A DNA stretch of 64,000 bases from Sphaerosporella brunnea (lineage: Eukaryota > Ascomycota > Pezizomycetes > Pezizales > Pyronemataceae): positions 1-64,000 of the forward strand of contig VXIS01000121.1 of assembly GCA_008704415.1 (NCBI GenBank), given 5' to 3'. Made by a program: the position numbers and the translations under genes. Below the pieces are notes generated by a model. That model searched no databases. It was given only the letters and a program-made list of their open reading frames with translations, and had not been told where the DNA came from. Shown here one piece after another: positions 24,925 to 60,577 of this stretch (positions are counted from its first letter, which is position 1; each line of letters begins with the position of its first letter).

Positions 24925-26342
24925 GGGTTTCTCCTCTTCGCCCTGCGTGCCCTCTTGGGCCCGGGCGGAAGGTTTTGTTCCTGGGGCGTACATCGAGGAC
25001 GCGTGTTTGTTTGGCTTTTTCTACGCTAATTGTTGATTTTCCAGCTTTAAACCATATATTTTCAGCACGTTTTGCCGGTGAACTATCTCTCCGGCGTTAG
25101 ACACTTTCCTTGCACAGCCCAATCACAACGTCTAACGCCCCTAAAACGTCACAGGAGCATCGGATATGCTGTGGAGACGCTCCACCATCAGAGACCATCT
25201 CGTCACTCACTAATCCAACTCTCCAATACAATCAGCATCCCTACTCTTCATTCCCATCCCATCCCTCCTTCTTCAGGTTCCGGCATGGTCCTTTCACTTC
25301 TACATCCGCCTTCACTACATGTTGTAACGTTTTTCGGTAGATGGGCTGTGTGGAACTTGCCCCCGTCTTCTATATTCGGGCGGAACAAACTCAGAATGGG
25401 TGAACGTCAAATTCATCTTTCCACACCCCCCGAACTCAACACCTACATATTTTCTCTGTTGTAAACTCTTTGTTTAGATCCCAAGCGATTTGGACTTTCT
25501 GTCATTTGAGGCTGAGGCCCATAACGGCACGGTGCTTTGTTTCGGGCTCACCGCGCCTTTTCGCGGGTAGTCGTGGCAAACAGGAAAGAAGTCTTGAGAC
25601 ACGAGTCGTTATTCCAGGCACCGTCATGGGAGACTCCAGGGCAGGCGATAGTTACTCTTCGTTATCCTGATGAAGTGGCCGTAGGCCACACACAACTGTC
25701 ATCAATCATGACCAACACGCACGAGTGATAGATCATTTCAACAGACGAGACGCGAATACCTTTGAGAAGGAGCCGGAGTGATTTTGTGGATTGATAGATA
25801 TTGCAATGTGAAGGAGCGACTTCCTGTGGATAGATCTGGAAGTCGATCCCATCTCAACGACGGCCATAGACTTCCAGATTATGTCCACACGAAAAGAATG
25901 TATCTCTCACTCGAGGCAACCGCCACAAGAAGACGGCAGCCAGATACTGAGAGTTCGCCTCCTCGCCTTGTAAGGGAGGAGGCGAATGTGTATTCTAGGC
26001 TTATGAAATTTTACTTTTTGACTTCACCGATCATTGAAGGACCGACAAAGCTTCGAAAGTGCCAATTCGTGTTTGATATCGATATCGTGAAAGGAAAAAG
26101 AAGCAGATTCTGAGGATAATCGTTTATTCGCGGTCTATGTACATGATATCTAATCGTCGTGGTGGTGGTGGTGGCGGTAACGTGGAAAGAGGTTGAAGTC
26201 AAGGTGACGAACGAAAAAGTTTGTGAGAATTGCGGCTTTTATCCTCGCACAAGTCTTGGCGGGGCTAATTTACGCCGACACACCCGCTCCGCGTCGCGTC
26301 TTCCCCAACCTAAGCCTCATCCACCAACGACAAGTCGCGACC
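24925..26342. other. Intergenic, no gene seen
   Basis: Follows the tRNA-like element and leads to the SMN gene. No convincing protein frame. If the tRNA-like unit is a SINE, its body would start here; I saw no terminal A-run or target duplication. Confidence 0.4.
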
Positions 26343-27050
26343 ATGGCCACCACCAACCCAGACGAAATACAGCTCGACCTTACGCAGGCAGAAGTATGGG
26401 ATGATTCAACGCTGGTAGAGGCGTGGGACGAGGCGTTGACTGAGTACAAAGTATACCATTCCTCATTGGTTATTGCTGTTTTTGAGGTGTTGGGCTTGGA
26501 TGTGCGCTGATACGTGCGCTAGAAATACCACAGTATTGCGGTTACGGGAGAGGATAAAGAGGCTTTGATGAAAGCTGTGGAAGAGGGCCGAGACATTGCC
26601 CCGAAGGAGCCGCCGAAGGAGGAGGTGATGACGGATGCGCCCGCCACTGCACCCGAAACCGATAACCCTGAGACAGCTACGACTGAGGAGCAGCCTGTAG
26701 TCGAAGAAGACAAGCTTTTAGTCGAGAACTTTGATGTGCAGAACAAGGGCATCACCGAAGACAAGGCGCCAGAAGAACCTATTTCTGAATCGCCTGCGCC
26801 AACAGAGCAGCAGCAACAGACTGCGTTTCCATTCGCGCAGATGCACCCTGCTGGACCTGCTGAAGGGTATGCTATCGGTGGAAGTAAGCTTTTCGTCCTC
26901 TAGATAATGTACGAGGATGGAACGCTGACTTTCGCAGATGACGTGTCTATGAGGAATCTCATGATGGCGTGGTACTGGGCCGGCTACTATACCGGCCTTC
27001 GCGAAGGACAGCAGAAGGCCATGGAACATCAGCAGCAACAGCAACAGTAG
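26343..27050 (+). CDS. smn1: Survival motor neuron (SMN) orthologue
   Basis: Exons 26343-26450, 26523-26883 and 26938-27050 give 193 residues. The N-terminus carries the Gemin2-binding helix (QAEVWDDSTLVEAWDEALTE, then YKKYHSI across the first splice), close to fission yeast Smn1 and human SMN. The middle is acidic and Pro/Thr-rich and has no Tudor domain, as in other fungal SMN proteins. The C-terminus is the oligomerising YG box (MRNLMMAWYWAGYYTGLREG), followed by a Gln-rich tail. SMN assembles Sm rings on spliceosomal snRNAs. The start ATG is in a CGACCATGG context; an upstream in-frame region with a signal-like start exists but lacks conserved sequence. Confidence 0.88.
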
Positions 27051-28154
27051 TCAAACAACCGAGTGCCTAGTGTGATAATGGTGAAGTCGTTAAACAACCC
27101 GATACCCCTCTTTAATCGGTTGGCGACAACATCAAACGAGGCTACTAGATGAAGTAATGGGAAGAAGACGAAACAATCCAACTGGCTGTGCAGAAAACTA
27201 CCTTGGTACATTGCGCGGTGTTTAGCAAATGGTGAGGGCTACCGGTCTTGCCGTATTTTTTCTCTTCTAGGCCATGTAATTGATGCTTGTAGAGCGCACT
27301 CCTACATTTAGAATACCGATATCTATTTCAAGGATTGTCCAGAAAATGTACAAGGTTTTTCGTAAGGGATTGACAACTTGGTGGCTCGTTGGCCTCGCTT
27401 GTCGACCCAGAATCGGGAGTTCTGGCCGCCGCATTTTCACAAGGCTAGCCATGTCTTTTAACCGTCATTTGGTGCATAGCCCGAAGCGACTGCATTCGCA
27501 CCACGCTGGTGGTTGTTTCTATCGCGTTTGACGTTTGCTGGGACCAGGGGTGAAGACGTTGGAAATATCCCGTTTAGGCGCTGGTGACTCAGCCCAAACG
27601 CCAACAAGCTTTCTGACACAACGCCAGAAACACATCATGATACATACAAGTCTCGACTACGCAGATCTCTTCGTCCAATGTTAGGAAGCTATCTCGATTA
27701 TGTCCTCGGATGGCGCTCTGGTCCTGGATCTTGCCTGCAGTCTAATTCAGACCTACCATTTTGGGAGCGGACCATGGATTCGTGCTAGGCCTCGCCGCAG
27801 GTGTCCTGTGGACATGCTCTGTGACAGTACAGAAATTTGGAATCGCTTGTGCGGTATCTACAAGGGCCGGATTTCTCTTGGGGAAGTCGATGAATATAAA
27901 CACATCTGGCACCAAGAGGTTTCCTTTTTCCCTTCGCTACCTCTTACCCCATCTCCAATCCAGCCTCTCTTGAGAGCCCATCCTCCTGGTTTCCTTTTTT
28001 CTGCCTTCTTCAACATCGAGTCAGAGACTTCGATCCGTTCACTTCTTAATTCGTTGACGAATTACCGTAATATCACATTTCCCTCTTTCCCGCTGAGCGG
28101 AGTTTTTGCTTTTGGTTTCCTTTCTTCTTACTACCGAGTAATACATTATCCATC
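27051..28154. other. Intergenic between SMN and the cupredoxin gene
   Basis: No gene seen. The last 200 bases are pyrimidine-rich, as expected for the leader of the next gene. Confidence 0.5.
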
Positions 28155-29243
28155 ATGAAGCTGTCTACAACACTCTCACTCCTCTCTACCGCCGGCAGCG
28201 CCTGGGCTACACCACGTGTGGTCGAAATCCTCGGAAACGGCGGGTACGGAATGCCCAATGACGCAGCGATGATGGAGACCACAACGGCGGCGGGCATGAT
28301 GATGGAGACCAGCACTATGATGCACGACGCGGCCATGGCCACAGGAGCGCCAGCAAACATGATGACCACTACCGCGGCAATGATGGAAGCAACAACTCCA
28401 CTCATGAACGAAATCGCCATGACCACCTCTGCGGCAATGATGACGGACACCACCGCTATGATGGCGGACACCGCTATGATGGCAGACACAACCACCATGA
28501 TGGACTCCGCCCCGATGATGTCGGATACCCCCATGGCTGCTGCTATGACCCATACCGTATGTTTCCTCCCTCCTTCCAACCACAACTCAATCTAACAGTG
28601 GTAGGTCATGGTCGGCGGCACTGCAGGGCTAGTCTACACCCCCAGCGAAGTCCAAGCCGCCGTCGGCGACGTCGTTCACTTCGTCATGCTCGCGAAGAAC
28701 CACACAGTAACACAAAGCACCTTCGACAAGCCCTGCGTCAAGATGGCGGGGGGACAAGACAGCGGGTTCCTCCCGAACATGGCGGGTACCGCCGCAGACG
28801 CACCGACGTTCCAAGTCACGGTCGCGGCCACCACACCCACGTGGTGGTACTGCAAGCAGAAAGTCGGCACCCACTGCGGGAAGGGCATGGTTTTCGCCAT
28901 CAACCCCACGGCGGAAAAAAGCTTTGCCACGTTCCAACAGATGGCGATCCAGCAGAACGGGACCGCGGCGGGCACGGGAAGTAGCAGTTCTACTGCTGTG
29001 GCTGGCTCTCCCGTCACGTTGACGGTTGATAACAGCGGCTTGAGTACTATGGTCACGAGCACTACCGCCGCTATGGCGACGATGCCCGCGGCTACTATGA
29101 TCGCGCCTGGATGGAATAACAACGGCAATGCGGGCGCCTGCAGCTGCGCTTGCTTCTGTGGCGTGGGAGCATTCCCGGCCGGCGACGGCGTTGGGGCTTA
29201 CGGCGGGTATGCGGGCAGCATGCCGGCGCCGTGGAGTGGTTAG
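28155..29243 (+). CDS. Secreted Met-rich protein with plastocyanin-like (cupredoxin) domain
   Basis: Exons 28155-28556 and 28605-29243, intron GTATGT...GTAG (48 nt), 346 residues. Residues 1-19 form a signal peptide (MKLSTTLSLLSTAGSAWA). Residues 30-135 are an unusual Met/Thr/Ala run with many MM and MxxM groups. A cupredoxin domain follows (from about 135 to 245): GDVVHFVMLAKNHTVTQS gives the first His, then WWYCKQKVGTHCGKGMVFAI gives Cys, His and Met, so all four type-1 copper ligands are in place. A Thr/Ser-rich stretch and a Cys cluster (CSCACFCG) end the protein. Fungal extracellular serine-rich proteins share this cupredoxin type. A role in copper binding is inferred; no GPI signal is clear. 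Confidence 0.82.
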
Positions 29244-30193
29244 AAGCAAGCGTCGTTGTGTGCAACGTGTTTGCTTTTTTTTTTGTATTCATAGTCTAAT
29301 GTCTTCTTTGGGTGGTTGAGGTGTTTTTTTTGTTTCTCTTAAGCTTCTTCTTTTTGTCATATACTCTACTTGGCTAAAATATTCTGCGGCGCAGATGGGG
29401 GGGGGGGGGGCGGCAGCGGCGGAGGGGATTGTTTTGTAAATGTACTTACCCTAGCAGAGGCCGTTTTGAAAAATGATCATCTGAGCGTTACATGGCCCTT
29501 ACAATTTCTGTGATATAGCCAAAAATTCCCCCCCCGTATGTATTATAACTAAGGGGTAGGTTGGAAAGCTTATAGCTAGCCAGCCCTCTCATCCACCACC
29601 GTCGAAGTCGTGCACCTCGCCTCCCGCAACAGGCGACACCACACTACCAGTACTCGTGGCAGAACTGCAGCTTCTTACTATTTACTCTAGAAAAAGTAAA
29701 AAAAAAAAAAAGGATACATGAGATTTCATCAAGAGTGAGAAGTTAGTTAGTTAGTGATCACCTTCCAGCGTAAAAATAAGTGGGCTGGTCTATCGCTACC
29801 ATATATAGAGCCAACAACCATAGAACAGACATATCGGGCCTCTGCGTTCAGATTGCTTTCATTTCATCTATCGAGTGATCCCTCATGACCCATCCCTCCC
29901 ACTCACACTCACTCACAGATGCAGGCTGAGTTCCGCGCACCGTGAATTCCTTGCATTTCCGTTGCATATCTTTCTACACTTGCTGTGGCCTATCTACTCT
30001 CTCCTTTCATTTACTTCTTTCCATTTGAGATGTTGGTAACAAGTGGAGTTGAGGTGGAAAGCAGCACAGAAAGGAAAAAAAGGACTCATATATTGAATGA
30101 TATTTCCAAAAAAAAAACAGTAAAAAGCAGATTACACCGACAACGCGCCCATGCCCATTGAGGAATCAAGCAAGCAAGCAACAGCAGTCTATT
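29244..30193. other. Convergent intergenic region
   Basis: 3' regions of the cupredoxin gene (+) and glutathione reductase (-). Contains G14 near 29398 and A13 near 29700; no gene seen. Confidence 0.5.
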
Positions 30194-32727
<2,534 letters not shown>

Positions 32728-33567
32728 ATGTCCACCGCCTGGCTCTCCGCCCTGAAGATGCCTGCGCTGCGCCGTCTCTCCGCACTCGTAGGGCTGAACA
32801 TGACCGGCAACAAAACCACGCTTCTGACGCAACTGGCATCCCTCCCGCCGACGTCCTCCGCCTCGCGCATCCTGAGCATCGACATGGGCATCCGCAACCT
32901 TGCGTACTGCGTCCTCGACCTGCCAGCGGGTAAACGGCCTCAGGTCCTAGCCTGGACGCGCACGGCCATTCCCATACCCGAGAGCATCGCGTTGCAGGCG
33001 TTTGCGGCTGCCGCGCACACTCTGGCTACCGATCTGCTGGCCGAGTGGGAGCCGGAATATGTCCTTATCGAACGCCAGCGGTGGAGATCCGCCGGCGGAA
33101 CCGCCGTGCAGGAATGGACCATCAGGGTTAATACCATTGAGGCTATGCTGCATTCCACTTTCTATTGCTTGCACGCCTCTGAGATGAAGTGGGACGGAAC
33201 CGTCGAGAGCGTGGATCCGGGGCGTGTAGCGCGTCTTTGGGCTCCGGAGCGGAAAGGGCGTACAACCGCGGCGCAGGTGAAGAAGCTGAAGAAGGAAGTA
33301 GTGCGGGAGTGGCTGCGGTTAGGCGGGGTGGTGAAGCTGGGGAATGCCAGCGTGGAGCGGACCGCGGAGTTGGTTGCTATTGCGGATACGAAGGGGGCTA
33401 CGAAAAGCGATGGGACCAAGCTGGAGGCGGAGGAAAAGAAGGTGGATGATTTGGCCGATTGCTTGCTGCAGGCTATGGCTTGGAGGAAATGGCAGCAGAA
33501 TAGGCGACTCTTGTTGAGCGGGACGTTACCGGACGAAATGAAAGATATCACAGCGGTGAGGCGGTGA
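32728..33567 (+). CDS. Mitochondrial Holliday junction resolvase, Cce1/Ydc2 family
   Basis: Single exon, 279 residues. After a short basic start with a SAP-like helix (TGNKTTLLTQL) comes the RuvC-like fold: Asp52 in ILSIDMGIRNLAYC, Glu115 in YVLIERQRWRSAGG, AVQEWTIRVNTIEAML, and a late acidic group DDLADCLLQAMAW at about 240-253. These are the metal-binding catalytic positions of yeast Cce1 and fission yeast Ydc2, which resolve four-way junctions in mitochondrial DNA and act in its segregation. The N-terminus could serve as a presequence. The gene runs toward the HNH gene on the opposite strand, with 223 bp between stop codons. Confidence 0.9.
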   Translation: MSTAWLSALKMPALRRLSALVGLNMTGNKTTLLTQLASLPPTSSASRILSIDMGIRNLAYCVLDLPAGKRPQVLAWTRTAIPIPESIALQAFAAAAHTLATDLLAEWEPEYVLIERQRWRSAGGTAVQEWTIRVNTIEAMLHSTFYCLHASEMKWDGTVESVDPGRVARLWAPERKGRTTAAQVKKLKKEVVREWLRLGGVVKLGNASVERTAELVAIADTKGATKSDGTKLEAEEKKVDDLADCLLQAMAWRKWQQNRRLLLSGTLPDEMKDITAVRR

Positions 33568-33699
33568 CACGAGTGACCCTCAACGGGTGATGCCTGCGTG
33601 ATAAACATATGCCGGTCCACCCAGGGAAAAAGTGAAGCTAAATGCTCGACGCCCATCCGAACCCCAGATCCGTAGAACCGCGCGGAGCAAACAAACAGC

Positions 33700-34757
33700 A
33701 GGCTTCGCCCCCTCTTTCGCTTCGGTCAAGGGGTCCCCCTTCACTCATATATAATACATCAATGAACAAAAAAAACTCCGTTTCGAGTCCTCAAACAACC
33801 CCTCGCAATCTCCACACAAACTCCATCTCCAACCTTTCTTGCGCATACGGTTCTGCTCGAATCTCTCCCATCATGCCTGTCCCTGGTGGAAAGTTGTGCT
33901 CGAAGATAGGTTCCCCAGCACCTCTCATATTCGCAAGAACCGACTGGCGGAAATGCCACCTCAGAAGTTGGTCGGGCACACGGTGCGGGTTTGCCGGATC
34001 GCGACAAACAGGATCCAGGATTCGGCCGTCCAAGCCATCCAGATCATCGTCAAACACTACAATTTTGTAGTTATCCTACTATGAATTAGTAGGAGAAATA
34101 AATTCACTCAGTATACTCACATCCGGATTCACCGACAACAAGTACTGATTGAAGTCTTGGTGAATGTCTGCTCGAAGCAGAAAGCCATTCTGCAGCGAGT
34201 TGATCTTCGGAAATCCATTCATGTCCGTGATCCACCGACTGTAACCCTTCTCGATCCAGTGACTTTCACTCTCAAGAGGAAAGATATGAGCCGCTTCGAA
34301 GCTGGACCAGTTCCCACGATAAGCTCTTGTATTCACAACGCCCGATATGACGCATTTTCCATCTCGAGCACGGATTCCACGACGAAAGGCATCTTCCCGC
34401 CCAGAGACGCTGTGTATGAGGCGATGCACCCATGGCTCATTGTTGACCTCAATAGGACCTGTTCAAGTTAGCCAGCGATTGAAGCCCCCACTTCAGCGAG
34501 CACCTACTGTTGCTATAAACGTCATACTCTCCCAGTCCCAGCGAGTTGTTCGTTGCCGTTACGATGTGCCCCGAAGTTCTCTCTTGAACGCGTAGAGGAG
34601 ACTCCGTGATGAGTAGGATCCCAATCATGTCGAGAAAGTTCGCTTCCGTGACCGACCCATTCTGGATGAGTCCGCCCAAAGCGATGCCGGGCTTTGAAGC
34701 ATCGCAAAAGTGCACATTGCGGCCGAGAGAGCGATCGATAGGCATTGAGTGAACTCC
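33700..34757. repeat. HNH module copy 1 (duplicated segment)
   Basis: About 1.06 kb matching 57070-58174 in the same orientation, including the HNH gene, its introns and about 90 bp of 3' flank (from AGGCTTCGCCCCCTC). Similarity stops abruptly after GAGTGAACTCC upstream of the start codon. No terminal inverted repeats are seen around this copy. Confidence 0.85.
33791..34745 (-). CDS. HNH nuclease-domain protein, copy 1
   Basis: Exons 34745-34508, 34458-34121 and 34075-33791 give 286 residues; introns of 49 nt (GTAGGT...CAG) and 45 nt (GTGAGT...TAG). The N-terminal half has VTATNNSLGLGEYDVYSNS, a conserved start of this fungal family. The nuclease core is RARDGKCVISG, then FEAAHIFPLESE and NSLQNGFLLRADIHQDFNQY, giving the H, N and H of the HNH fold with the AHI and ADIH motifs of the fungal HNH_2 type. 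A further conserved part ends with ILDPVCRDP and a WHFRQSVLANMRG block. Such proteins are expanded in Pezizomycotina and of unknown role. It appears intact. See copy 2. Confidence 0.85.
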
Positions 34758-35374
34758 ATCCGTGGTGGGGTTGAAGAAGCTTTGCTACTTCTCAACCAGT
34801 GCGGGGGATGCCCCCCACCTAAACACAAGACGCGACCGTGGCCAAGCCTCACGCTACCCGTCATTTTACCCCTGTTCCACTAGCGGCGTTCCGAACAGAC
34901 CCCTGCCACCAGTGTTCTCAATAGCTGTGGGCTGCATGAGCTGTTGCTCGGGTGGACATCATTGTTGCTTCACCGGTTATCACTCTGTACCAATTCGCGA
35001 CTTTTACATGCAAAGACGCAGCCCACAGCCAGCCAGCCCGGGCTTCGTAGCCGGGCTGATCAAACAGCCCAGCCGGCCCATTTTGGCAGCCAGGCTGACA
35101 GCCCGGGCTTTTTGGGCCGGCCATTGAGAACACTGCCTGTCACAATCCTCATTCCGGAACGTGAGAATTACCCCGTAATTCCTGTGATATACTGCGTGCG
35201 TTCCGCGTTCGGTATCACTCGGTCTGAGCACAGCCTCTGGCTCCAGTGTCAAAGCCTCGAAGAGGGGGTCCTGCGCCCCCTCGTAGAGTGTGTCCCCCCA
35301 CTATCCTATCGCTCAGTTGAGTCTATGTCTTGAAATACACCATGACGCCAATCCTACCCAGATCAACCCAACCT
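34746..35374. other. Intergenic with MITE-like element
   Basis: No gene. It holds the element at 34909-35135 and, at 35190-35300, sequence with GCGTTCGGTATCACTCG that loosely resembles the DNA inside the left end of the HNH element near 56945. Confidence 0.45.
34909..35135. mobile_element. MITE-like element with 13-bp terminal inverted repeats
   Basis: CAGTGTTCTCAAT at 34909-34921 is matched by its exact reverse complement ATTGAGAACACTG at 35123-35135. The interior is rich in CAGCCCGGGCT and GCCGGCC blocks that can pair with each other. Non-coding, 227 bp. No clear target duplication is seen, so the call is tentative. Confidence 0.5.
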
Positions 35375-36511
35375 CTATGCCTGATGAGGCCGCCCACCCT
35401 GCTGCGGTTGCTGCATGGCAGGAGTCGCCAGTCCCATCATCCCTCTACTCGCCTTTTCGGCCTCCGTCCTCAACATATCGAAGTTCATCCTCTCGGGCAG
35501 GCTTTCAGTCCTGACCTGCTTCACCTCATCATCGTCCATGAGTTGCTTGCCAATATCAGTTTCCCTCGTCCACCACTCCACAAACTTCCCCCTCAAATCA
35601 TCGTCTCTGAGGATCGCGTGCTTCGTGTACCTTGCCGCCTGCAAGGACGATCCTGCCTTCTCCATCCTGCCAATACTCTCCTTCAACCTCTCCTCCGTCA
35701 ACCACGTCTCCCACCCAATATTCCAGCGCCTGGTCGCGCTCAACCAAATCGCAGTTCCTAGAATCGCGTCGATGACAGCCATGCCAACCCCACGTATCAC
35801 CCGCATCCTCCAATGCGCCCACACGATCTCACGTTCACTCTTTGCCGCAGCGTTCTGCCGAAACCCATCGCTCGACATCCCCAGGAACCACCACTCGACA
35901 GCGAACAGCGCCAGGGCTGCAAGTGTAGCTTGCATGCGCCACACCTTTCCGAAGTGCGAGAAGTAGCTGCTAGTGGCAATGCCGAGCACAAGCCCATGCA
36001 ACAGATGCGGATACAGAATCGACGGCAGCGCGTACCACAAGAACATGTTCGGCTCGTCGAGATTGCAGTAGGTGCATTCGACGAGCGGAGCCGGGCCGTA
36101 AGCCGCATAGACCAGCCGGGCATCCTTCGAGACCAGCCGCGTACGTAGCGCCTCGTCGAATGGCGTCAACACGCCGTTGCGGATCCGCGTGAGTCGGGTG
36201 AAGAGAACATGGGTGGGGGTCTGCAGGCGGGAGCCGGTCAAGGTGAAGATGTTTTCCGGGGTGTACTGTGGGATTGTGGATAGGAGCGCTATGGAGGCGG
36301 TCAGAAATAGCAGGTTGAGGATGTGGGTGGCGCTGGATGGTGCGCTCTGCGGCGGGTGCGAGGTTTTGGTGCTGGTGTAGAAGCGCCGCGCTTGCGTCCA
36401 GATGAAGGGGCCGAAGAAGAGTGCGAGGCTTTGAATTCTGGGAGGGTTAGAGGTGGATGGAATGGGGGTGGTGGTGGTGGTGGACGGGACTTACTGCGAC
36501 CAGGACACCAT
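35375..36511 (-). CDS. Conserved fungal multi-pass membrane protein of unknown function
   Basis: Exons 36511-36495 and 36437-35375, intron GTAAGT...CCAG (57 nt), 359 residues. The first coding exon has only 17 nt. Likely membrane helices: around 48-65 (LLFLTASIALLSTI), then LWYALPSILYPHLLHGLVLG, ATLAALALFAVEWWFL and MAVIDAILGTAIWLSA. Conserved-looking blocks are YTPENIFTLTGSRLQTPTHV, DARLVYAAYGP and CTYCNLDEP (two Cys, possibly metal-binding). The C-terminal 110 residues are soluble and helical. I recognise the pattern as a widespread uncharacterised Pezizomycotina protein but cannot give a function. Confidence 0.75.
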
Positions 36512-36639
36512 GCTGGCGGTGGTGTTGTTGGAGCAGTTGGGTGTTGTTGGGCGGAGAGTTACATGCAGCTGTGGCTGCTCATCGACGAAGCACAAGCGCA
36601 ACCAAAAACGCCAAGTCTCGACGTGTTCTCTTTATGATT

Positions 36640-37340
36640 CGTCGGCCTACAATGTAGAACTTTTTGGTATTGTGGCCGAGCTGGAATTTACTGCCAGACC
36701 CCTCCCCAGGCGGCATCACACAACTTTTCCCCGATGCCCAAGCCACCTTTAAAAGGCTACAAAACGGTCTGCCCGGCTCGAGGCAATGGATACTGCCGAA
36801 AATTGTCAAAGCCAAACCGACGCTTCAGCATGCAGGATGGAAGACCAGATTCCAATGGGTGCCGGAGCACTCAACGCCCTGGGAAACGAGCTTATTGATC
36901 AACGTGCCAAGAGAGCGGTAGATGTACCATTACAGCTCACCCCCAGGCACAGCCGACATCACGTCAATTGAGGCAAATCACTGAAGCTCAATATCGTGAC
37001 CATCTTGCTTGGACTTGGAAGCAGCGTGCTAGCAAACAATACTACAAACACTACAAACAACGACGCGCTGGTACACGCAACGCTGACGCCATAACTACCA
37101 GAGCTACAAAATTTCTGGCTTTTTGCTATTACCAACTGAAGGTCGACAAAGCACCTACAGGCCCCTACTTGCTGGAGACTAACCGGCACAACAATGGCAA
37201 GTGCTGGTTCTGCAACAAAAGCCTAGTGTAGACCAGGAAGCATTTTTTCAAGTTTGTACGCACTGGCGCAAGAAACAAGCAGGCAGTTATTGAAGCCACA
37301 ATGAAAAAGGGAAAAAAGGGAGTGGAGAAATAAAGATCTC
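36640..37340 (+). mobile_element. Remnant of a LINE (non-LTR) retrotransposon: RNase H and C-terminal region
   Basis: Three overlapping frames read as one decayed polyprotein. First, DAQATFKRLQNGLPGSRQW and KTRFQWVPEHS resemble the RNase H of fungal Tad-like LINEs (the D of SDAQA and the W-V-P-x-H-S motif). After a frameshift near 36868, ALNALGNELIDQRAKRAV continues it. From about 36970, TRATKFLAFCYYQLKVDKAP, then GPYLLETNRHNNGKC and CWFCNK match the C-terminal zinc-binding part. A stop at 37229 and further decay follow. No reverse transcriptase is present, as expected for a 5'-truncated copy. Confidence 0.65.
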
Positions 37341-37876
37341 TTCCCCCATCAATGTCTTGTTGGCCAAAGATTTGGACCTGGTTTAAGAAGCCGACAATGT
37401 AACGATAAATATGCTTTGACCACCTCTTTCCCATGTCAAGCCATGGATTTCTTTATTCCCTTATGCCTTGTTTCCATTACAGACACCCAAGGCCTAAGGG
37501 CAGTCTGCATGTACTACTGTCTACGTCATGGCCGCAAGCGGCCGAATACAACAAAAAAAAAAAAGAGATGTGGCTGCTCACTCGAAAGTCTAAGAGCACA
37601 AACAGCAGCGTAAAAACTCTTTTCGCACAATATCAATCATTTCGGTCATTTCAGATGGACGGTCGAGTGCTCATCGCCATCTCCAACTTCATCTCGCCGT
37701 GACATGTCCGAGTGACCAAACACGTAAATCAAGGGCACATTTGGGAACCCTAGCCTACCGCGTGAAAAGAAAAAAAAAATACCCCAGCCATCTCTGCCAG
37801 CAGTCCTCCCCTCGTCAACCACCACACACCATCACCTCTCCCCTATATCTCCCCCCACTTCCTCACAATAAGAATA
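37341..37876. other. Intergenic, promoter of NOP15
   Basis: No gene. Probably the trailing part of the LINE insertion, then the NOP15 promoter with pyrimidine-rich DNA just before the start. Confidence 0.45.
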
Positions 37877-55737: not shown

Positions 55738-56766
55738 CTAAGTGGACGCTCCATTTCCATGTCCACGGTCCGGCGGCGATATGACAGGAGGCTTTTCTCT
55801 CTGGCCAAACCTCCTAATCCACGTCACCGCCCTCTCCTCCAACACTATCTCCCTCGCCCTCTCCTCTCCCATGCCCTCTACACTCCCACACTTCTCTAGC
55901 ATCTCCAAAACCCTCTCTCTGGCCGCGGGACTCACCCTCCCGACCAGTGTGCGAAGGGTACACCAAACGCTCTCATGGCCGGGCGCGACCTCCCTCGCAT
56001 ATTCCACCGCCTCCACAACGACCTTCTCGACCGTCTGCACGCGCTCACACCTTTCCAGCAACCAGCCCAAGAAAGCCCACACGCCCACATCCTCGGCATG
56101 TCTCCAGCAAAAACTCAGTTGTCTCTCGACCTCCTGGTCCTCCTCCTCCTGGGCAGCCCCCGCGAACCGTTCAACTACCCACCGCGCGTGGTTCCACGCG
56201 TAATAATTCCTCGGGTGGACCTCTGCGCTTTTCCTGACTATGTCTAGTTCAGTCGTCGTCGTGGAGGTGGCGGCGGTCGAGGCGGCGGACACGCAGGAAA
56301 GCACCCATCTCCGATGCGCCCACAGCAGCGGCGACTTGTTGTGCCGCGGCAACGGCGAGGTCAGCAGGCTTTCCAGCCACACCAGCTCCTCGCCCGCCGC
56401 CAGGTGCGTGTGGAAGTACCGTTTCCGCGTGTTGAGCGCCGTGAGGTGCTCGCTCGCCGCGAGCAGGAGGATCGTGGTTGCGTCTAGCAGCTCGCGCGGT
56501 GACGGGGACGGGTAAAGCTGGAAGATGCGGCGCGCGTGGACGAAGGCGGTGATGAGACATTGCTTGGGAATCCCGAGGTGCGGTGGTGAGCTGAGGATTT
56601 CCGTGTAGGGTGCTGGAAGGAGTGAGATTTGACTGGGCGTGTGTCGGTGCGTGTGGAAGAAGGCTAGGAGTGTGGTGTATTCGAGCGGCGGCGGGGGTGC
56701 GGTGATAGGTGGTAGCGGAGTGGGAGATGCCGGCGGCAGAGCTGCTGGCGGCGACGGGGAGGACAT
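55738..56766 (-). CDS. Protein prenyltransferase alpha-repeat protein, PTAR1/ECM9-like
   Basis: Single exon, 342 residues from ATG at 56766; the frame is open further up but only through a TTG, and a transposon TIR begins 53 bp upstream. Protein prenyltransferase alpha-subunit repeats are visible: NKSPLLWAHRRWVLSCV and HPRNYYAWNHARWVVERF, both with the WxxRxxV core, and further degenerate repeats at CWRHAEDVGVWAFLGWLL and PGHESVWCTLRTLV. The mammalian homologue PTAR1 is the alpha subunit of geranylgeranyltransferase III, which modifies the SNARE Ykt6; yeast ECM9 is the suggested counterpart. It would pair with a beta subunit encoded elsewhere. Confidence 0.78.
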   Translation of the reverse strand: MSSPSPPAALPPASPTPLPPITAPPPPLEYTTLLAFFHTHRHTPSQISLLPAPYTEILSSPPHLGIPKQCLITAFVHARRIFQLYPSPSPRELLDATTILLLAASEHLTALNTRKRYFHTHLAAGEELVWLESLLTSPLPRHNKSPLLWAHRRWVLSCVSAASTAATSTTTTELDIVRKSAEVHPRNYYAWNHARWVVERFAGAAQEEEDQEVERQLSFCWRHAEDVGVWAFLGWLLERCERVQTVEKVVVEAVEYAREVAPGHESVWCTLRTLVGRVSPAARERVLEMLEKCGSVEGMGEERAREIVLEERAVTWIRRFGQREKPPVISPPDRGHGNGAST

Positions 56767-56818
56767 CGCGGGAGCCGTGCGGAGAACAGGGGAGCTTGAT
56801 GAAGCTGGGACAACCCTA

Positions 56819-56862
56819 CCGTATAAACTCGCCAATAAGCAACACGGGCCGAAGAAGTGGGG
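56819..56862 (+). repeat. Left terminal inverted repeat of the HNH element
   Basis: 44 bp, exact reverse complement of 58229-58272. Outer flank TA at 56817-56818. Confidence 0.92.
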
Positions 56863-57069
56863 TAATGGGTGTAATGTGCCAAGATCCAATCACAAGCAAT
56901 CTTACCTTTTGCTTCGCAAAGGTTTAGTTGCTGAGAACGCTTAGCGTTCGGTCTCACTCGCCTCAGTCAAAGCCTCTTCTCTTCGGTCAGAGTGCCACAT
57001 TAAGCCCCAGTGCTCAATAAAAGAAAGAGGTCTCCCCCACTCAAACTATCGAGTCGCTCCGCTCCTTGA

Positions 57070-58174
57070 GGCTTCGCCCCCTCTTTCGCTCCGCTCAAGG
57101 GGTCCCCCTCGTTGACAACGTGAATTTCATGAATAAGAAATGACATAATCAATAAATAAAAAAACACCAATGAGTAGAAAAAGACAAGTAACTCCTCAGC
57201 CAATCCCTCGCAATCTCCACGCAAACTCCATCTCCAACCTTTCTTGCGCATACGGTTCCTCTCGAATCGTTCCCATCATGTCTGTTCCCGGTGGAAAGTC
57301 GTGCTCGAAGATAGGTTCCCCAGCACCTCTCATATTCGCAAAGACCGACTGGCGGAAATGCCACCTCAGAAGTTGGTCGGGAACACGGTGCGGGTTTGCC
57401 GGATCGCGACAAACAGGATCCAGGATTCGGCCGTCCAAGCCCAGGTTATCGTCGCCGAACACCACGATTTTATAATTGTCCTATTATGAATTAGTAGGAG
57501 AAATAAATTCACTCAGTATACTCACATCCGGATTCACCGACAACAAGTACTGATCGAAGTCTTGGTGAATGTCCCCACGAAGCAGAAAGCCATTCTGCAG
57601 CGAGTGGATCTTTGAAACTCCATTCGTGTTGTCCATGTCCGTGATCCACCGACTGTAACCCTTCTCGATCCAGTAACTTTCACTCTCGAGAGGAAAGATA
57701 TGAGCCGCTTCGAAGCCGGACCAGTTCCCACGATAAGCTCCGCGATTCACAACGCCTGATATGACGCATTTTCCATCTCGAGCACGGATTCCATGACGAA
57801 AGGCATCTTCCCGCCCAGAGACGCTGTGTGTAATGAGGCGATGCACCCATGGCTCATTGTTGACCTCAATAGGACCTGTTCAAGTTAGCCAGCGATTGAA
57901 GCCCCCACTTCAGCGAGCACCTACTGTTGCTATAAACGTCATACTCTCCCAGTCCCAGCGAGTTGTTCGTTGCCGTTACGATGTGCCCCGAAGTTCTCTC
58001 TTGAACGCGTAGAGGAGGCTCCGTGATGAGTAGGATCCCAATCATGTCGAGAAAGTTCGCTTCCGTGACCGACCCATTCTGGATGAGTCCGCCCAAAGCG
58101 ACGCCAGGCTTTGAAGCATCGTAAAAGTGCACATTGCGGCCGAGAGAGCGATCGATAGGCATTGAGTGAACTCC
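57070..58174. repeat. HNH module copy 2 (duplicated segment)
   Basis: Match to 33700-34757 in the same orientation. This copy lies inside the TIR element. Coding parts are nearly identical; non-coding 3' flank is more diverged. Confidence 0.85.
57196..58162 (-). CDS. HNH nuclease-domain protein, copy 2 (inside TIR element)
   Basis: Exons 58162-57925, 57875-57526 and 57480-57196 give 290 residues, with introns of 49 and 45 nt at the same places as copy 1. The HNH core is unchanged: RARDGKCVISG, FEAAHIFPLESE, QNGFLLRGDIHQDFDQY. It differs from copy 1 by four extra residues (one in LITHSV, three in DMDNTNGVSK) and scattered substitutions, all in frame, so both copies look under selection or recently duplicated. 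A nuclease with this fold cuts DNA or RNA through a metal at the HNH site. Being the sole gene of a TIR element makes a role in its movement possible, but this is inference; it may simply be captured cargo. Confidence 0.87.
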
Positions 58175-58228
58175 GTGTGTGCTGTCCTTATATAGAGAAC
58201 ATGAGCTCCCTACCCCTGCAAAGCTCCG

Positions 58229-58272
58229 CCCCACTTCTTCGGCCCGTGTTGCTTATTGGCGAGTTTATACGG
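58229..58272 (-). repeat. Right terminal inverted repeat of the HNH element
   Basis: 44 bp, exact reverse complement of 56819-56862; outer flank TA at 58273-58274. The HNH start codon lies 66 bp inside, so the promoter must sit in or across this repeat. Confidence 0.92.
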
Positions 58273-58408
58273 TACCCCGCTGTTTCACATGGCTTATCAC
58301 ACTCTCACTATTCGAGACAAACAGCACCACTTGTCCTGTAACTCGCTCGCGGCTTGATCTACATAATTCCAAACATACACTGTGGTGTTTTCTGCCATTG
58401 TATTCAGC

Positions 58409-59789: not shown

Positions 59790-60372
59790 CGCGATGTCGA
59801 CGTCGTGCGGTTGAAAGGTGGGGGGTTGGAGGCAAAGAGTGCACGCAGAAAGCTTGGCGATGTGACTTGACTGATGGAGTGCGGGTCTGGTGCATAGCTC
59901 ACGGCGGTAATTAGAAATTATGCTTGACTCGAGGACCGCGATCACTGCACATCGAATGGCATTGCATAAGTTGCATAAGTGCCGAGGTAGATGCTTGGTG
60001 TGGGAACTTCCGTCCAGCTCATGTGTGACTAGGCCCAAGCTGGAAATAGATTTAAAGTTAAGCGGCATCAGGACACGGCCTTCGTCTGCGATGCTTTCGT
60101 CCGCCTTGCATTAGCGCGTGCAGGCGAGATGGGGGATCTCGACGACAATATCTCGACCACCAGACGTCCAATTGCTACCAAGCTCAAACCCAAGCATCCT
60201 GAGATAGTAGCGAACAAAAGAGAATAAGAAAAGCCAGCAACGCGCCCTGCTTCATAAGCAAAGCTCCAAACCCCACCCTACCCACTGCTGCACCCCCTTC
60301 AGGACCTTTGAAGCCATACCACAGCCCGCTCTTTTCCCGGCAGAAAGCGCTGTAGTGGTTTGTTTCTGCATA
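59790..60372. other. Intergenic, promoter of the N2227 gene
   Basis: No gene seen between the N2227 start and the MITE. Confidence 0.45.
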
Positions 60373-60575
60373 CCGTATTGACTCGGCTATAAGAGACCCC
60401 CCCCCCCCAGATTTGGTTAGCGGCACAGAATTGCCTTATAGGGAATTTAATGTCTCCAAAAGGAAGTCAGTAAAAACAAAAACTCTCCTTGGTAAGCTTG
60501 AAAATTTTCCTATAAAGCAATTCTTTGCCGCTAACCAAATCTGGGGGGGGGTCTCGTATAGCCGAGTCAATACGG
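60373..60575. mobile_element. 203-bp MITE with about 70-bp inverted repeats and TA flanks
   Basis: Left end CCGTATTGACTCGGCTATAA... and right end are reverse complements for about 70 bp with few differences (C11 against G9 and five or so substitutions). TA lies outside both ends (60371-60372 and 60576-60577). Only about 60 bp separate the repeats. The outermost bases CCGTAT and the following ACTCG match the TIR of the HNH element, so both may use the same transposition machinery. Confidence 0.88.
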
Positions 60576-60577
60576 TA

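Follow-up and report, generated by a model that had tools for sequence, protein, structure and literature searches.

An HNH nuclease gene between perfect inverted repeats in the fungus Sphaerosporella brunnea is probably a passenger captured by a MITE

Does a nuclease gene enclosed by perfect terminal inverted repeats (TIRs) move these repeats, or is it carried by them? The question is raised by a 1,458-bp unit in the window, the whole stretch of 64,000 nucleotides of Sphaerosporella brunnea DNA that was analysed (contig VXIS01000121.1). The original prediction described 44-bp perfect inverted repeats with TA on both sides. It preferred a new system driven by the HNH enzyme; its second option was a nonautonomous element that had captured a host gene. 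The repeats are indeed perfect and slightly longer than described: two arms of 46 nt, TA included (56817-56862 and 58229-58274), are 100% complementary and lie 1,366 nt apart. A perfect arm pair of this length is far beyond chance. The TA was also seen, at both outer ends of the unit.

The predicted HNH gene is intact. It lies on the minus strand, starts with the ATG at 58162 and comprises three exons: exon 1 (57925-58162) carries the DUF7881 domain (PF25324, 4.3e-24), exon 2 (57526-57875) the HNH_2 domain (PF13391, 3.8e-16), and exon 3 (57196-57480) ends with TGA. The product has 290 amino acids and no internal stop. A public S. brunnea protein, P0001, is 100% identical to it over 290 aa, in agreement with the three-exon gene model. 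As expected, this DUF7881-HNH_2 gene is the only one found inside the TIRs. A DDE transposase was sought between them and none was found; hence, the unit is not an autonomous Tc1/mariner element. The neighbouring genes encode a prenyltransferase alpha-subunit repeat protein (PTAR1-like) and a CARME/N2227 methyltransferase. The unit lies upstream of the PTAR1-like gene, 50 bp from the ATG at 56766 (interval 56766-56817), and may supply part of the promoter of this gene or have altered it. A further TACCG-type foldback element of ~207 bp, with the ends TACCGTATTGACTC, is present in the window at 60371-60577 and resembles, by eye, C38:73255-73479.

The arms occur elsewhere in the assembly (50.6 Mb in 640 contigs, the scope of all genome searches). 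A left-arm probe of 67 bases gave 20 genome matches, and ten loci were then read. Intact foldback elements of 151 bp are present at C350:30508-30658 and C637:27095-27245, and one of 149 bp at C257:67762-67910, each with TA at both ends. The remaining loci contain broken copies; those at C495, C401 and C61 share their flanks and were counted as one event. These short, noncoding TIR elements in several copies are MITEs, and at none of the ten loci do they carry an HNH gene. An intact but divergent relative, 70% identical over its length, is found at C387. As single-stranded DNA, the C350 copy is predicted to fold back into a hairpin whose loop comprises the 15 nt of positions 69-83; the energy of the fold is -81.5 kcal/mol, compared with a mean of -18.3 for shuffled sequences (z -21).

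Comparison of the window unit with the C350 copy reveals that its first 81 and last 47 bases are identical. The left MITE part (TA, TIR and stem, with the greater part of the loop; MITE positions 1-81 of 151) is located at 56817-56897 on the plus strand, with 81/81 matches; the right arm (positions 105-151, TA at its end) at 58228-58274 on the plus strand, with 47/47 matches. The 23 bp of positions 82-104 are gone, and an insert of 1,330 bp (56898-58227, minus strand) stands in their place. The two arms are parts of one MITE. Over 81+46 bases, the C637 copy shows 3+1 mismatches to the window unit and the C257 copy 6+3; C350 is therefore the best match to the copy that existed before the capture. 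The left junction of the insert sits in the hairpin loop, and the missing 23 bp begin in this loop. Among the seven independent broken copies, four (window, C18, C70 and C133) end at positions 73-87, in the loop or within a few bases of it, and the other three (C12, the C401/C495/C61 group and C635) end elsewhere. This count was made post hoc on few cases, and the C133 copy is ambiguous, as it partly continues past the break; a clustering of broken ends at the loop is hence no more than hinted at.

The insert contains more than the coding sequence. The 3' flank of the gene (module X, 56898-57150, minus strand) is rich in short palindromes, and pieces of it are also found at C638, C192, C205, C149, C101, C601 and C66. 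On the other side, a promoter-like segment with a TATA-like motif (module Y, 58187-58230, minus strand) shows 89.8% identity to a sequence found at C638 in front of a neighbouring gene. With module Y positioned downstream of HNH at C638, the possibility was weighed that the HNH unit is circularly permuted; it was dropped, as part of module Y (27/27) also precedes the C638 HNH gene. Since both introns, the promoter and the 3' flank were kept, the insert was copied as DNA and not from mRNA. The window unit is probably a C350-type, TA-flanked foldback MITE in which the centre was replaced by a copied host gene, that is, a single-copy Pack-TIR (transduplication): copied host gene sequence is found between the TIRs of a known TIR element.

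The original prediction treated the TIRs and the HNH gene as one element family, and the census of TIRs does not bear this out. The exact T-type 14-mer, TACCGTATAAACTC, is present at 32 sites in the genome, all of them covered by the census. Nine neighbouring pairs among them are convergent. One is the window unit (1,458 bp), seven measure 151-225 bp, and the ninth, at C495, spans 7,418 bp and has a right end that belongs to a broken MITE. The window unit is the only TIR-HNH-TIR unit among these 32 exact sites. A related end, the C-type TACCGCATAAACTCGC, occurs at 190 sites, and the 100 listed give 32 adjacent pairs: 26 measure 102-130 bp, the others 369, 433, 628 and 2,379 bp and 9.7 and 42.7 kb. 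The three pairs read (369, 628 and 2,379 bp) are all MITEs with a nested transposon, namely another short TIR element at C149 and at C151 (by eye) and a decayed Tc1-type DDE element at C142. MITE centres hence accept DNA. A looser scan for the TIR (up to three mismatches) gave 193 matches, against 2 for a reversed control pattern, and a TIR search of a phage collection gave no match.

The genome contains at least 86 matches to the DDE_3 profile, none of them between exact T-type TIR pairs (32 sites). No transposase tied to the TACCG TIRs was found among the exact T-type pairs, 100 of the 190 C-type sites and the three C-type pairs read. It had been suggested that the same TIRs might surround a DDE transposase, and C142:7295-9673 appeared to be such a case. 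In this locus (C142:7200-9770), an interior 56-bp perfect inverted repeat (TACTCACGCCGCC...) bounds the Tc1-type DDE element. The element possesses TIRs of its own and lies inside a TACCG MITE; copies of it at C615, C175 and C212 lack TACCG ends. It was rejected as the autonomous partner. The DDE elements of C291 and C565, which are related to it, carry other TIRs.

The HNH gene itself is not alone. The PF25324 profile matches the genome six times: in the window unit, at C26:34500-34724 of the same window, at C638, twice at C192 and at C590. The PF13391 profile has 48 matches. DNA identity to the window gene is 94% for C26:33788-34757, 92% for the two C192 copies, 84% for C149 and 72% for C638 and C590. 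The nearest paralog (33788-34757 of the window, minus strand) is 22 kb from the unit on the same contig, with no TACCG TIRs nearby; the shared promoter is missing from it, as is most of module X. When it is aligned to the TIR-bound gene, its reading frame stays open and shows two in-frame gaps. TIRs with up to three mismatches were sought in the 5.2-kb C192 loci, the 4.5-kb C590 locus and window positions 31000-37500, and none was present. The TIR pair of C149 is a separate 369-bp unit beside HNH remnants, and the two weak, same-strand TIR matches at C638 do not flank the HNH gene. A TIR pair around an HNH gene is therefore absent at the five paralogous loci scanned and at the window paralog. 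The paralogs cease to match the window copy at differing points, leaving ragged ends, and no long, high-identity inverted repeat encloses them, except that the two HNH remnants of C149 are in inverted order. The outcome named beforehand as speaking against an HNH-TIR system, a sole unit with related HNH genes outside TIRs, is what this genome contains.

No donor for the whole insert at high identity was found among the loci found in the genome. The 94% and 92% paralogs cover only part of the insert: the C192 copies are without the outer flanks, and C638 has both the promoter and module X but only 72% identity. At C192, a 5.2-kb HNH-bearing stretch is present twice (24988-30192 and 60217-65421), inverted and 99.9% identical, on one 66-kb contig. 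A reading frame with a Rad52/22 domain (PF04098, 4.9e-51; L012:3300-3809) adjoins the C638 HNH gene. An unrelated gene family encodes proteins beginning with MPPRSATTKDRSKK or MPLKSAKTKDRNKK, with no Pfam family above the cut-off. Promoter-side and 3' modules are common to HNH genes and this family at C638 (L012), C205 (L016) and C601 (L027), as if flanks had been shuffled between the two.

For the window gene, dS is 0.116 and dN 0.046 against C26:34k, and dS 0.036 and dN 0.049 against C192; C192 and C26:34k differ by a dS of 0.083 and a dN of 0.075. Comparisons with C638 are saturated in dS, with a dN of about 0.26-0.28. Judging from these values, the recent HNH copies look weakly constrained or relaxed. 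A protein search gave 779 homologs. In an alignment of 44 chosen from the best 120 of these 779, 30 columns are invariant, and the putative H/N/H residues assigned here (H138, N174 and H183) are invariant or nearly so. A conserved family with relaxed recent copies fits an often-duplicating host gene family; family conservation does not demonstrate a working mobility enzyme. Tuber species, each with several paralogs, account for many of the best 120 matches, which suggests a repeated expansion of the HNH family in Pezizomycetes. In the AlphaFold model, the HNH part is of poor quality (mean pLDDT 49.8). Searching solved structures by profile with the HNH protein gave no match, and DUF7881 is absent from the openly licensed literature searched.

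Could the nuclease nevertheless have inserted itself? As a homing enzyme, it would cut the hairpin or cruciform centres of MITEs, its gene would be copied into the break, and it would spread by its own cutting. The insert does begin in the hairpin loop, the putative H138, N174 and H183 are conserved as described, and the family is large in fungi. However, this genome has one such junction only, and no recurrent site proper to the gene was found; none of the five paralogous loci, nor the window paralog, sits in a MITE centre, the HNH copies have different ends, and the other broken MITE copies are without HNH. Homing is hence extremely unlikely, and the same slight chance is given to its extended form, a structure-guided DUF7881-HNH homing gene that parasitises palindromic MITEs and is then carried by the MITE transposase. 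HNH homing endonuclease genes encode the nuclease domain that the window gene also has, and they have a recurrent target site and an intron or intein setting. The window gene, by contrast, lacks both and belongs to a large DUF7881-HNH_2 fungal family. The HNH-driven system preferred by the original prediction thus has the HNH-less MITEs, the single unit in 32 sites and the five paralog loci without an enclosing TIR pair against it.

Other origins of the junctions can be weighed on the same evidence. Nested elements in other MITEs of the superfamily would agree with a discrete HNH cassette, inserted as a unit with its own ends by nested transposition. Yet the two ends of the insert share no inverted repeat, 23 bp of the target were lost with no target duplication seen, and the paralogs terminate at different points. 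Helitrons end in 5' TC and 3' CTRR, and such ends were not seen by eye. A cassette is improbable on these grounds. There is even less reason to believe that the HNH gene was resident and became flanked by two separate copies or halves of a MITE: HNH paralogs without TIRs do exist, but the arms complement each other as parts of a single C350-type copy, its left-arm variants included. An assembly artefact that joined a MITE contig to an HNH contig might be imagined, as both parts are repeats. The published S. brunnea draft, which may be another version (51.6 Mb, 872 contigs vs. 640 here), is a PacBio assembly of about 900x according to an excerpt of PMC6908789, and an artefact is extremely unlikely.

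Capture of the HNH gene by the MITE is favoured because the arms alone form 151-bp MITEs and the HNH paralogs are found outside such TIRs, with different ends. This was the second option of the original prediction, and it is the one supported. Most likely, the HNH gene is carried as a passenger rather than driving a new mobile element. Judging from the TA at both ends, the first step would have been the insertion of a C350-type MITE at a TA that lies 50 bp from the PTAR1-like ATG, on its upstream side. The position of the junction suggests that the palindrome then suffered a double-strand break near its loop. Repair may have copied a nearby HNH locus, as DNA in view of the introns, guided by a few shared bases; the candidates, seen by eye with the distant C638 copy as a stand-in donor, are a short TCTT close to the left junction and a GCC at the right-hand one. 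Both ends having been kept, the unit would in principle be movable in trans, and the whole 1,458 bp might still be mobile, provided that a matching transposase of the Tc1/mariner type acts on these ends. Joined flanks of the unit matched, in this genome, only its own two flanks, and an empty site was not seen. The missing empty site, full donor and tied transposase, the short microhomology and the few loop cases count against capture.

If capture is right, this is a well-resolved case of a fungal MITE that acquired an entire gene of functional appearance together with its introns and promoter, and the MITE in its pre-capture form persists at full identity elsewhere in the genome. It would illustrate a route from a 151-bp hairpin to a gene-bearing TIR element. 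It also cautions that a lone nuclease gene inside perfect TIRs need not imply a new transposition enzyme.

No report of a MITE carrying an HNH gene was found in the openly licensed literature, the scope of the search, which excluded subscription journals. Gene capture by TIR elements is, as far as the excerpts of the three sources go, already known in plants (PMC8903248), in animals (PMC8277862) and, in fungi, from one hAT case (PMC3538342). In animals, single-copy Pack-TIRs show a cis bias towards nearby donors; their breakpoints are internal, microhomology is seen, and their origin is ascribed to gap filling without transposition in the excerpted part of Tan et al. 2021 (PMC8277862). The window unit is similar in its host copy between TIRs, its single copy, its internal breakpoint, the nearby paralog and the short sequence shared at the junctions. 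Unlike those described in that excerpt, it is fungal, contains a whole intron-bearing gene with its promoter, and is hosted by a near-perfect hairpin MITE.

Plant Pack-TYPE elements include Pack-Mariner elements with TA duplications, and the Mariner types are mostly of low copy number (PMC8903248, in part). Like them, the window unit is a TA-flanked, nonautonomous TIR element that holds captured coding DNA. A section title of that paper ascribes capture to the mobilisation of neighbouring insertions, whereas the window unit is one MITE with a central replacement. In Pyrenophora tritici-repentis, the transduplication of a histone H3-like gene by a hAT element is termed the first fungal case in the excerpt of PMC3538342. 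Both are fungal DNA transposons with a host-like gene between TIRs. The hAT element, as described there, is multi-copy and has a form with transposase; the window unit, on the contrary, is a TA-flanked MITE in one copy and without transposase.
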